Source: an uncultured Spirochaetaceae bacterium
GTDB lineage: Bacteria > Spirochaetota > Spirochaetia > Sphaerochaetales > Sphaerochaetaceae
DNA: 64,000 bases
Reading direction: 5' to 3'
Assembly: GCA_900315435.1 (NCBI GenBank)
Contig: OMYY01000005.1
Span: 1-64,000, forward strand
The notes below the pieces were generated by a model. It saw nothing but the letters and a program-made list of their open reading frames with translations. It had not been told where the DNA came from and did not search any database. Position numbers and translations under genes: made by a program. Below, piece by piece: positions 191 through 13,538 of the stretch; position 1 is the stretch's first letter; each line of letters opens with the position of its first letter.

Positions 191-1204
191 ATGCAGATTA
201 CGTTGAACCACCTGAAGCGAAGCTATGGTGATCTTCATGCGGTCAATGATGTCAGCCTCACCATTCCTTCCAACAAGATCTTCGGCATCATCGGCAAGAG
301 TGGTGCGGGCAAATCGACCTTGGTCCGGCTGATTTCCCTGTTGGAGAAGCCGGATTCCGGTGAAGTGTACTATGACGACAAACGAGTGGACAATTTGCCT
401 GTTGAGGAGCTGATGCTGCATCGGCGCCATATCGGCATGATTTTCCAGAACTTCAACTTGTTTTCCAGTCGTGATTGCGCTGGAAATATCGCCTATCCGA
501 TGGAAATCAACGGGTATAAGCGCGATGTGATCGATAAACGGGTCAAGGAACTGTTGCATATGGTAGGTCTTGACGGAAGGGAAAATGCACGTATCAGCAC
601 CCTCTCTGGCGGACAGAAGCAGCGTGTCGCCATCGCACGCGCCCTATCCTGCAACCCAGGAATCCTCTTTTGTGACGAAGCTACGAGTGCCCTCGACCCA
701 CAGACAACCAGCTCGATTCTCGACCTGATCAAGGAGTTGCAGAAGAAGATGAGCCTGACGGTGGTGATGATCACCCACCAGATGGAGGTCGTCCGGGACG
801 CCTGCGAGGAAGTCGCCGTCCTGAATGACGGCATCGTCGTCGAGCAGGGGAAGGTGGGCGATATCTTCAGCAAGCCACAGCATCCCGTCACCAAGGACTT
901 CCTTTCCCGCTTGGTTGGCGTGGACCAAGGCAAGAAGACCGATACGGTCTACCAATGGTCCCGCACAAAGGGTTCCTATATCCTCCGTTTTCCGGGCGAG
1001 GTGACCGACAAACCAGTCATCAGTATGATCAGCAAGAAGTTCGATGTGGATTTCAACCTGCGTGCCGGGGGAGTGCAGACCGTGGGAGGAGAGGAAATCG
1101 GCACGATGTACGTCGATATCATCTGCTCCGACCCGGCAAAGCTCCCCGAGGTCATCAGTGCCTTGCGCGGTGAGGGTCTGATTGTCGAGGAGGTCAAGAA
1201 ATGA
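191..1204 (+). CDS. metN: Methionine ABC transporter ATP-binding protein MetN
   Basis: This is the ATPase that powers methionine import at the cytoplasmic face of the membrane with MetI and MetQ. The 337-aa protein has a Walker A GKSGAGKST (about residues 35-43), the ABC signature LSGGQKQR and a DEATSALDP Walker B/D-loop. Its C-terminal ~75 residues match a NIL-type ligand-binding domain, which in MetN binds methionine and inhibits transport (family knowledge). The ATG is preceded by GAGAGGAG. The stop overlaps the metI start in an ATGA arrangement, which implies translational coupling. The substrate assignment rests on the NIL domain plus MetI and MetQ next door. Confidence 0.95.
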   Translation: MQITLNHLKRSYGDLHAVNDVSLTIPSNKIFGIIGKSGAGKSTLVRLISLLEKPDSGEVYYDDKRVDNLPVEELMLHRRHIGMIFQNFNLFSSRDCAGNIAYPMEINGYKRDVIDKRVKELLHMVGLDGRENARISTLSGGQKQRVAIARALSCNPGILFCDEATSALDPQTTSSILDLIKELQKKMSLTVVMITHQMEVVRDACEEVAVLNDGIVVEQGKVGDIFSKPQHPVTKDFLSRLVGVDQGKKTDTVYQWSRTKGSYILRFPGEVTDKPVISMISKKFDVDFNLRAGGVQTVGGEEIGTMYVDIICSDPAKLPEVISALRGEGLIVEEVKK

Positions 1205-1869
1205 ACTGGACTACCTTTTCCCGCCTGATTCTGCCTGCTACCGGCCAGACGCTGGTCATGGTTTTCTTTTCCACGCTTTTCTCCCTGATCCTGGGATTTC
1301 CGTTGGGTGTCCTGCTGATGGCGACCAGCCGTGAGGACCAGGGCGGCATCACGCCGCACCGCGTGCTGAACGAAGTGATGGACAAGATCGTCAATGTCCT
1401 GAGAAGCTTCCCTTTCATCATCCTGATGATCGTGCTCTTTCCCCTTTCCCGCCTGATTCTCCATACCGCTATCGGCACCAAGGCGACCATCGTCCCGCTT
1501 TCGATTGCCGCCGCTCCCTTCGTGGCTCGTGTCGTCGAGTCGGCGCTGAAAGAGGTCGATCCTGGAGTCATCCAGGCAGCAAGGGCGATGGGGTCGACCA
1601 ACCGGCAGATCATTGTGAAGGTGCTGGTTCCCGAGGCTCTTCCGAGCCTGATCGACGGCGTGACCTTGACCATCATCAACCTGATCGGCTACTCGGCCAT
1701 GGCCGGCGCCATCGGTGGTGGCGGCCTTGGCGACCTCGCCATCCGCTATGGGTACCAGCGCTTCAGGCCTGAGGTCATGGCGGTCGCCGTCATCGTGATC
1801 CTCGTGTTGGTCCAGGCGATCCAGCTGGCAGGCAACAAGCTGAGCGCCAGAATGCTGGCGAGCCGTTGA
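1201..1869 (+). CDS. metI: Methionine ABC transporter permease MetI
   Basis: Inner-membrane permease of the MetNIQ importer. The protein has 222 aa, normal for MetI, with about five hydrophobic segments. The EAA-type coupling motif EVDPGVIQAARAMGST lies near residue 120, and a conserved GGGGLGDLAIRYGY stretch follows. It starts 4 nt before the end of metN and is followed by an intrinsic terminator, so metNI form a two-gene unit separate from the solute-binding gene metQ. Family assignment is very secure. Confidence 0.95.
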   Translation: MNWTTFSRLILPATGQTLVMVFFSTLFSLILGFPLGVLLMATSREDQGGITPHRVLNEVMDKIVNVLRSFPFIILMIVLFPLSRLILHTAIGTKATIVPLSIAAAPFVARVVESALKEVDPGVIQAARAMGSTNRQIIVKVLVPEALPSLIDGVTLTIINLIGYSAMAGAIGGGGLGDLAIRYGYQRFRPEVMAVAVIVILVLVQAIQLAGNKLSARMLASR

Positions 1870-1891: not shown

Positions 1892-1921
1892 GCCCTCTCT
1901 TTGCGGAGAGGGCCTTTTTTT
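1892..1921 (+). terminator. Intrinsic terminator after metNI
   Basis: GCCCTCTC (1892-1899) pairs perfectly with GAGAGGGC (1906-1913) around a 6-nt loop and is followed by a run of seven T. It separates metNI from the metQ unit. Confidence 0.9.
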
Positions 1922-2038: not shown

Positions 2039-2067
2039 TTGCATTTGGGGAGAAGTTCCGCTATCGT
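2039..2067 (+). promoter_or_regulatory. Putative promoter of the metQ leader unit
   Basis: TTGCAT (2039-2044) and TATCGT (2062-2067) are separated by 17 nt. The -35 hexamer is the same as at metNI. Transcription would start near 2074, about 20 nt before the leader-peptide start and about 215 nt before metQ. Confidence 0.45.
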
Positions 2068-2094: not shown

Positions 2095-2166
2095 ATGATG
2101 GACGACAAATTCTTCGCTATCGACAGCATGTGCATGATGTCTCTCATGATGCCCTGGCGGGCATAA
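2095..2166 (+). CDS. Methionine-rich leader peptide upstream of metQ
   Basis: This 23-aa reading frame, MMDDKFFAIDSM followed by CMMSLMMPWRA, has 7 Met codons including two tandem pairs near its end. A strong Shine-Dalgarno GAAGGAGAG lies just upstream. It lies alone between the putative promoter and metQ. GAGAGACAT (2088-2096), covering its ribosome-binding and start region, is perfectly complementary to ATGTCTCTC (2137-2145) in its own Met cluster. ATGCCC/GGGCAT (2149-2154/2159-2164) forms a second hairpin across the last Met codon and stop. Composition, position and structure match a ribosome-stalling leader peptide sensing charged Met-tRNA. The function is inferred. I do not know a described family for it. 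Confidence 0.7.
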   Translation: MMDDKFFAIDSMCMMSLMMPWRA

Positions 2167-2207
2167 CATCATTCATATTCATTCAACGGTCAATTTGGGT
2201 TTCTTGT

Positions 2208-2238
2208 AACGAAGGGCGTATGCCATATTCGTTTTGTT
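2208..2238 (+). promoter_or_regulatory. Terminator-like hairpin in metQ leader
   Basis: AACGAA (2208-2213) pairs with TTCGTT (2228-2233), and GGC/GCC (2215-2217/2222-2224) pair inside around a GTAT loop. A T-rich tail TTGTTCC follows. It lies 41 nt after the leader-peptide stop, where an attenuator would be expected. The stem has an internal bulge, so termination efficiency is uncertain. Confidence 0.4.
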
Positions 2239-2289: not shown

Positions 2290-3114
2290 ATGAAAAAGAC
2301 TTTGATTGCTGCTTTTGCTGTCTTGTTGTCGGTTTCCACCGTTTTTGCCAACGGTTCGAAGGAAGAGAAGAGCGCCACGCAGGCACAAGGACCGGTCACG
2401 CTGAAGGTCGGCGCCACCCCTGAGCCGCATGCCGCCCTGCTGAACTTGGTCGTCGACGACCTCGCCAAGCAGGACATCAACCTGCAGGTTGTCGAATTCA
2501 CCGACTATGTCACTCCGAACGAAGCCCTGGAGAACGGCGAGCTTGACGCCAACTACTTCCAGCACATCCCCTACCTTGATTCCTTCAACAAGGAGAGAGG
2601 CTATCATCTGGTCAACGCTGGCGGAATCCATGTCGAGCCGTTCGCCCTCTACTCCAAGAAGTACAAGAGTCTGGCCGATATCCCCAGTGGAGCTACCGTC
2701 GCGATCCCCAACGATCCGACCAACGAAGGCCGTGGCCTCCTGCTCCTGCAGGCTGCCGGCTTGCTGAAGCTGAACGACAATGCCGGACTGGAAGCCACGC
2801 CCGTCGATGTGAAGGAGAATCCGAAGAACCTGAAGTTCCAGGAAGTCGAGGCCGCCTCTCTGCCGAGAGTCCTTGATGACGTCGATGCTGCCGTCATCAA
2901 CGGCAACTACGCCATCCCCGCCGGCCTGGTCGCCACCCGTGATGGCTTGTTCGTCGAGGATTCCTCCTCTCCGTATGTCAATGTGATCGCCGTCAAGGCT
3001 GGCCATGAGAACGATTCCGCCATCAAGGCGCTGGTCGCCGCCCTGAAGAGCCAGAAGGTTGCCGACTACGTCGCACAGCACTATCCCAACGGTGAGGTCG
3101 TCCTGGTCAAGTAA
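2290..3114 (+). CDS. metQ: Methionine-binding protein MetQ (NlpA family)
   Basis: Extracytoplasmic solute-binding protein delivering methionine to MetNI. The 274-aa protein has a signal peptide (MKK, then a hydrophobic stretch, cleavage around VFA/NGS), then the NlpA core with VGATPEPHAALL, ANYFQHIPYLDSFN and the IPNDPTNEGRGL loop. I use the ATG at 2290, 10 nt after GAGGAG. An in-frame GTG at 2272 would overlap that site. Most MetQ proteins are lipoproteins, but no lipobox cysteine is present here, so signal peptidase I cleavage to a periplasmic protein is expected. It is transcribed separately from metNI, behind the Met-rich leader. Confidence 0.93.
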   Translation: MKKTLIAAFAVLLSVSTVFANGSKEEKSATQAQGPVTLKVGATPEPHAALLNLVVDDLAKQDINLQVVEFTDYVTPNEALENGELDANYFQHIPYLDSFNKERGYHLVNAGGIHVEPFALYSKKYKSLADIPSGATVAIPNDPTNEGRGLLLLQAAGLLKLNDNAGLEATPVDVKENPKNLKFQEVEAASLPRVLDDVDAAVINGNYAIPAGLVATRDGLFVEDSSSPYVNVIAVKAGHENDSAIKALVAALKSQKVADYVAQHYPNGEVVLVK

Positions 3115-13136: not shown

Positions 13137-13209
13137 GCCTTTGTAGCTCAGTTGGTAGAGCACCACCTTGGTAAGGTGGGGGTCAGCGGTTCAAATCCGC
13201 TCGAAGGCT
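13137..13209 (+). tRNA. tRNA-Thr (GGT anticodon)
   Basis: Acceptor GCCTTTG pairs with CGAAGGC (one G-U), the D-loop has AGCTCAGTTGGTAGAG, the anticodon loop TTGGTAA reads GGT, and the T-arm has GGTTCAAATCC. There is no encoded CCA. A T6 run follows at 13211-13216 without a separate hairpin. It is co-transcribed with rpmG. Confidence 0.95.
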
Positions 13210-13431: not shown

Positions 13432-13538
13432 TTCGAGGAGCAAATAGGCCACTAGCTCCAACGGTAGAGCGCTGGTCTCCAAAACCGGATGTTGGGGGTT
13501 CGAATCCCTCGTGGCCTGTCTGCTCCTCGAATTTTTTT
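13432..13538 (+). other. Long-range stem enclosing tRNA-Trp, with T-tract
   Basis: TTCGAGGAGCA (13432-13442) is perfectly complementary over 11 nt to TGCTCCTCGAA (13521-13531). The two arms flank tRNA-Trp by 3 and 2 nt. Seven T follow directly (13532-13538). The element may act as a processing clamp (for example an RNase III site) and as a tRNA-dependent terminator ahead of secE-nusG. Confidence 0.7.
13446..13518 (+). tRNA. tRNA-Trp (CCA anticodon)
   Basis: Acceptor AGGCCAC pairs perfectly with GTGGCCT, the anticodon loop CTCCAAA reads CCA, the T-arm has GGTTCGAATCC, and the discriminator is G. There is no encoded CCA end. It is enclosed in an 11-bp external stem. Confidence 0.95.

Follow-up and report, generated by a model that had tools for sequence, protein, structure and literature searches.

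The locus studied here raises the question of whether a short, methionine-rich reading frame just upstream of a methionine transporter gene could itself sense methionine. On the usual view, bacteria gauge their supply of this amino acid through SAM riboswitches, Met-specific T-boxes, MetJ or other repressors. We analysed a 64,000-nucleotide stretch of DNA (hereafter, the window) from an uncultured member of the Sphaerochaetaceae, in which the first-pass annotation had marked such a frame before metQ and proposed that it is a leader peptide controlling this gene.

The leader and metQ as a transcription unit

The names metN, metI and metQ rest on matches to NCBIfam and Pfam profiles, and the features of the locus, together with comparable leaders elsewhere, are collected in Table 1. 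Since a canonical terminator follows metI, the leader and metQ, which starts 123 nt past the leader stop, appear to form a transcription unit of their own, separate from metNI, as had been claimed. The promoter proposed for this unit fared less clearly: the hexamer pair is present, and TTGCAT-type pairs stand at the same distance 5' of the leader in many related genomes, but a consensus promoter scan did not list it, and promoter-like sites in the region were no commoner than chance. If the pair is used, the RNA would be expected to start at about 2074. Upstream of it, at 1952-2002, lies an AT-rich imperfect palindrome with a 78% match to its own reverse complement, which may be an operator or may belong to the terminator region between the genes. 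Elsewhere in the window, Rfam identified two tRNA genes (13137-13209 and 13446-13518).

The frame proved to be as annotated, with 23 codons, seven of them for Met, and a strong Shine-Dalgarno sequence (SD), except that its second ATG (2098) could also serve as the start in place of the first (2095). It is the most Met-rich of the 49 SD-led small ORFs in the window. Four ATG codons make up its Met cluster, and a fifth, at 2149, sits inside the hairpin that follows (hairpin 1). An NCBIfam search with four leader peptides gave no match.

Table 1. Features of the leader-metQ locus (window coordinates) and leaders at other loci
Feature	Position	Strand	Evidence or remark
metN, ATP-binding subunit with NIL domain	191-1204	+	TIGR02314 322 bits (below equivalog cut-off), PF00005, PF09383
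metI, permease	1201-1869	+	NF008049 214 bits, above cut-off
Canonical intrinsic terminator 3' of metI	1892-1913	+	parts metNI from the leader-metQ unit
Promoter-like pair TTGCAT-17 nt-TATCGT	2039-2067	+	sequence; TTGCAT 2039-2044, TATCGT 2062-2067
Leader SD AAGGAG (2085-2090) and 5' strand of helix P1	2085-2096	+	exact complement of 2137-2145
Leader ORF MMDDKFFAIDSMCMMSLMMPWRA-stop, 23 codons, 7 Met codons; start 2095 or 2098	2095-2166	+	sequence and parsed relatives
Met-codon cluster, ATG at 2128, 2134, 2137 and 2146; holds anti-SD TCTCTC (P1 3' strand 2137-2145)	2128-2148	+	
Hairpin 1, (ATG)ATGCCC-TGGC-GGGCAT(AA)CAT; core stem 2149-2154/2159-2164	2146-2169	+	covers last Met codons and stop
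U/C-rich, G-poor tract 3' of hairpin 1	2170-2198	+	U-run weaker here than in most relatives
Hairpin 2, AACGAAGGGCGTATGCCATATTCGTT, then TTGTT	2208-2233	+	sequence
metQ, methionine ABC transporter substrate-binding lipoprotein; putative gene under control	2290-3114	+	TIGR00363 231 bits (above cut-off), PF03180 326 bits
Second leader copy, same genome, MRHSGFSMCMMSSMMPVRA-stop	G000:C45:9298-9383 (L002 1461-1546)		before oligopeptide-type ABC transporter operon
Leader in L150			before complete metN-metI-metQ operon
Leader in L183	1280-1333		before metA
Leader in L161	1194-1262		before metY
Leader in L156			before operon of YbdH-like dehydrogenase and methionine-aminotransferase-like gene

A family-wide leader before methionine genes

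The metQ relatives of other Sphaerochaetaceae are preceded by the same kind of frame. With a covariance model made from 25 leaders, the element was detected in 81 of 138 Sphaerochaetaceae genomes (E<=0.01), along with a few false matches near the threshold; the matches L174, L159, L175 and L176 were judged false. A pattern search of a sample of the phylum returned about 25 true leaders, every one of them in this family; pattern matches in other Spirochaetota families stayed at chance level, as did the covariance-model scores outside the family in a scan of 393 genomes of the phylum. Frame and Met codons are conserved across genera, which answers the doubt that the first-pass annotation had itself raised, namely that close relatives might lack them. 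Within the family, Sphaerochaeta halotolerans has no leader, and its metQ lies close behind metI. In a Treponema MAG (L005 2827-2901), an unrelated-looking Met/Cys frame, MKFYFEKLVRENFRNGVMCLSMSL, precedes metQ, with a GAGA hairpin and a T-run behind it; this type was sought in 200 genomes and occurred only once.

In 72 of 78 parsed leaders the next gene is of the metQ/nlpA type. The other six stand 5' of metNIQ, metA, metY, the operon with YbdH-like and methionine-aminotransferase genes, and, in two genomes, opp. One of these two is the genome studied here, where a search with the leader DNA brought up the second copy, 5' of an oligopeptide-type binding-protein gene, and the other is G083 (L149), with the same arrangement. 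The supposition that only the supply of the binding protein is tuned in this way does not hold, given this range of downstream genes. Apart from the opp operons, all of the targets belong directly to methionine metabolism or uptake, and peptide uptake is a possible source of methionine. The leader-preceded genes look like a methionine regulon.

Selection for Met codons in frame

The peptides themselves vary greatly: they range from 17 to 25 codons, their N-termini differ, and 74 distinct peptides occur among 77 leaders, yet every one of the 78 parsed leaders has an open frame, and the SD and start are kept. ATG triplets 5' of hairpin 1 fall in the leader frame 258 times, as against 3 and 1 in the other two frames, and Met makes up 20% of the residues 5' of the hairpin's Met-run (77 leaders). 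Because the search model was made from Met-rich leaders, this count is partly biased, which inflates the size of the effect and not its direction. Of the upstream Met codons, roughly one in three is predicted to be unpaired, so RNA pairing does not account for all of them. Close pairs of leaders differ at codon position 3 more often than at positions 1 and 2 (147 vs 87 and 101 differences, the pairs being non-independent), a mild coding signal. By these comparisons, the regulatory codons are those of the amino acid that the gene behind the leader deals with, and they are selected in frame.

An early consensus at the C-terminus, PxRA before the stop, had made an arrest peptide a candidate. This was discarded: PxWA and PxGA variants occur, and the motif is lost in L179, L181 and L165, where hairpin 1 stays and the stop codon falls within its loop. 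In L180 and L182, moreover, hairpin 1 is shifted by one base relative to the frame. As the stem is kept despite a stop in the loop or a shift of frame, the conserved-looking C-terminus is best read as a by-product of the RNA.

The leader SD pairs with the Met cluster

The ribosome-binding region was noted at the outset to be complementary to the leader's own Met cluster, and here the match is exact over 9 nt, between GAGAGACAT (2088-2096) and ATGTCTCTC (2137-2145). Across leaders, the partners in this helix (P1) are the SD and pyrimidine-rich codons for the dipeptide SS, FS, SL or LS within the cluster, and they change in step, as in the pairs GGAGGACAT/ATGTCCTCC, GGAGAGACAT/ATGTCTCTC, GGAGAG/CTCTCC and GGAGAA/TTCTCC. 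Own pairs had a mean energy of -13.98 kcal/mol and swapped pairs one of -10.6 kcal/mol, and the observed value was reached in 0 of 5000 permutations, a result that held with 50 dissimilar representatives. When the cluster was recoded with synonymous codons, the mean was -9.39 kcal/mol. Since own pairing exceeds both the swapped and the synonymous controls, selection acts on P1 as RNA and not just on the encoded peptide, and SD and Met cluster co-evolve.

A terminator-like hairpin at the leader stop

The second hairpin that had been described, over the last Met codon and the stop, was borne out as well. Its core, ATGCCC-NNNN-GGGCAT, is near-invariant in 77 leaders, with a free loop (31 stem-loop variants), and takes in the last Met codon as well as the stop's first base. 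Of the expected conserved Met frame with covarying hairpins, the frame and the co-evolution of P1 were found; covariation in the outer 3-bp helix of hairpin 1 was not significant in the swap test, leaving weak support for it. In the g21 leaders this outer helix is replaced by TGTGC/GTACA.

In the same 77 leaders, T makes up about 63% and G about 1% of positions 5-14 past GGGCA, and the depletion of G extends to about +34. At least five T in 8 nt follow hairpin 1 in 76% of cases, as against 13% for the best downstream hairpin; the T share of the 8 nt behind the hairpin is 66% and 38%, respectively, over a baseline of 31%. L153 and L164 come close to the textbook form, with GATGATGCCC-N4-GGGCAT-RR-YATC and then seven T. 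This terminator candidate, hairpin 1 with a U-rich tail, is present in most relatives, its tail being U-weak in the window.

The terminator had originally been placed further downstream, at 2208-2238. A hairpin does exist there (hairpin 2), and many relatives have a local hairpin in the corresponding position, more stable than in shuffled sequences (mean z -1.08), but it is not conserved as a terminator, as most relatives have no U-run behind it. Judged by its conserved stem and tail, hairpin 1 is the better terminator candidate. Leaders of one genus (L138, L139, L109, L110 and L112) carry a further short conserved hairpin of the CGG-TATTAT-CCG kind before metQ.

No conserved antiterminator and no switch at the metQ SD

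We found no conserved alternative pairing of the arms of hairpin 1 with the 5'UTR or with downstream RNA. Pairing of downstream RNA with the leader SD and the 3' arm of hairpin 1 was no better than in shuffles, and with the anti-SD and the 5' arm only slightly above them. P1 was ruled out as an antiterminator, since P1 and hairpin 1 can coexist in free and in ribosome-constrained folds. A textbook-like 2:3 pairing, between GGCATA (2160-2165) and TATGCC of hairpin 2, is available in the window only; it was rejected as an antiterminator because relatives do not conserve it.

A switch at the metQ SD, as in the LEU element, was likewise unsupported. The mean share of bases paired with the Met cluster is 0.06 for the metQ SD and 0.67 for the leader SD, and a simulated ribosome stall barely changed the accessibility of the metQ SD (0.39 to 0.42). 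That the metQ SD is seldom paired with the cluster and hardly exposed by the simulated stall argues for a transcriptional rather than a translational output.

Other methionine sensors in the genome and the family

At the leader, Rfam searches of the window at gathering and relaxed thresholds gave nothing relevant, and no SAM aptamer matched. Neither SAM-I riboswitches nor MetJ (PF01340) were found in the genome studied, the MetJ search detecting its E. coli control. In the family, SAM-I scored above the cut-off in 19 of 138 genomes, and most of the loci inspected precede metK. With neither MetJ nor SAM-I found in this genome, and the SAM-I of relatives mostly at metK, methionine itself is left for the leader to sense. 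Six loci with SAM-I before metK (L189, L194, L195, L196, L198 and L200) belong to family members that also have the Met leader, which suggests that SAM and Met-tRNA are sensed separately there.

Proposed mechanism and its alternatives

We think it fairly probable that the element is a cis-acting, methionine-specific leader-peptide attenuator that senses Met-tRNA, leaving aside the exact step at which its output is produced. A ribosome would load on the leader and read the AUG cluster, and its dwell time there would gauge the supply of Met-tRNA. With plentiful Met-tRNA it would clear the leader, the Met cluster would re-pair with the leader SD, hairpin 1 with its U-rich tail would form at the stop, and most transcripts would end before metQ. 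With scarce Met-tRNA it would be held on the AUG cluster, unreleased, and would keep P1 and hairpin 1 open, and transcription would run on into the uptake or synthesis gene. We infer the sign, on under starvation (low Met-tRNA), and likewise the read-out, in which transcripts would end early, either at hairpin 1 as an intrinsic terminator or through Rho acting on the G-poor tract. When a pioneer ribosome was simulated in a simple way, slowing the Met codons lowered the chance that hairpin 1 was masked; taken by itself, direct masking has the wrong sign for a regulon of methionine supply. Either the sign is an unexpected one, or the output would need a further element, such as pausing of the polymerase, Rho kept off the G-poor tract by an unreleased ribosome, or some other step. 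What stands of the original interpretation is a Met-selected leader before metQ with a conserved SD:Met-cluster pairing; a conserved antiterminator or metQ-SD switch is not part of it.

The outcome of this simulation lends weight to a reading in which leader translation is permissive. Here hairpin 1 would stop the polymerase unless a closely following ribosome masked it, and the leader would report initiation capacity or ample Met-tRNA, with more expression when methionine is ample. Direct masking yields just this sign, the last Met codons and the stop lie within hairpin 1, and P1 would turn ribosome loading into a race; yet starvation-on logic is expected for genes of methionine uptake and synthesis, and permissive translation by itself needs no such number of Met codons, all of which makes this reading unlikely in our view. 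The sign comes out right if Rho is the agent: with ample methionine the ribosome would be released at the stop and open the G-poor tract to Rho, whereas one stalled on the Met codons would stay coupled to the polymerase and prevent termination. The lack of a conserved antiterminator fits this version, the G depletion to about +34 is longer than a U-tract, and rho is encoded on the same contig (window 63702-64000, running past the window end). Against it, the tract just past hairpin 1 is more U- than C-rich, and a stalled ribosome would leave the tract itself uncovered; we rate it as a minority possibility.

Could the RNA act with no translation at all, a protein or ligand recognising hairpin 1 and P1 while the frame is incidental? 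The near-invariant hairpin 1, kept with the C-terminal codons outside the frame (L179, L181, L165) or one base off it (L180, L182), would suit such an element, but the 258 in-frame against 4 out-of-frame ATG, the retained SD and start and a frame open in 78 of 78 leaders despite the diversity of the peptides would not, and we regard it as distinctly unlikely. Translational attenuation, in which the anti-SD of the Met cluster hides the metQ SD unless a stalled ribosome covers the cluster, draws on the fact that an anti-SD is complementary to any SD, and pairing with the metQ SD is indeed predicted in a few leaders (L129, L108, L151 and L157). The pairing and accessibility values given above speak against it, and it seems very improbable. 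Chance, finally, might produce a Met-rich frame this short, but hardly one conserved in 81 of 138 genomes of the family with a regulon and a frame bias; conservation has already refuted this explanation, whose likelihood is negligible.

Comparison with known leader systems

The attenuators of the trpL, hisL, leuL and ilvL type share with this element a leader ORF, codons matched to the pathway, leader hairpins and a place between promoter and gene. They differ from it in two respects: the terminator-like hairpin of the spirochete leader overlaps the control codons and stop rather than lying downstream, and there is no conserved antiterminator. In the E. coli pyrBI and ampC type, the terminator lies near or overlaps a translated leader and is thereby open to masking by a ribosome, and there are no cognate codons. 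The overlap of hairpin 1 with the translated leader resembles this layout, although pyrBI and ampC respond to different signals. With the SAM-I riboswitch (RF00162), which is present in relatives, the leader has in common the control of methionine and SAM genes by RNA, and differs in having no aptamer.

The actinobacterial cys and LEU leaders have cognate codons, no classical terminators and a possible Rho mode (PMC1262725). In LEU leaders the partner of the codon run is the structural gene's SD (PMC1262725), whereas in the spirochete element it is the leader's own SD. For the methionine operons of Actinobacteria, the same 2005 survey reported no upstream RNA structures (PMC1262725), and in 2010 leader-peptide systems were stated to have been shown only in Proteobacteria and Actinobacteria, to which the authors then added Firmicutes (PMC2965389). 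A close counterpart is metL of Streptomyces lividans, MSTTSDRTPATEATTTPGARCMCRRMCAF, a proposed attenuator before metNIQ that was predicted from RNA-seq (PMC8079986). It too is a short frame of Met (and Cys) codons before a methionine importer operon, but it is leaderless, without a typical terminator and with no described SD pairing or regulon (PMC8079986). The spirochete leader has an SD and P1, carries a hairpin at its stop and serves several target genes, and it comes from a different phylum with no evident sequence kinship. The first-pass annotation had known of no such Met leader in spirochetes, and the open-access literature searched describes none, nor any leader-peptide attenuator in Spirochaetota; the idea of a Met/Cys leader before metNIQ had already been put forward for Streptomyces.

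Significance

A wider claim, which we advance only tentatively, is that the family possesses a methionine regulon of a new layout, in which one Met run would serve as sensor, as the anti-SD that shuts its own leader and as the 5' arm of a terminator-like hairpin containing the stop, without an antiterminator, and in which dwell on the AUG codons would decide transcription, possibly through Rho and ribosome-polymerase coupling. If true, genes for methionine uptake, synthesis and salvage would stand behind a conserved leader whose Met codons sense Met-tRNA directly, the tRNA that also starts every protein. Its compact layout would offer a clear test case for the control of termination by a ribosome close to RNA polymerase. 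For the Sphaerochaetaceae, the Met leader and its folding point to a built-in gauge of methionine supply.
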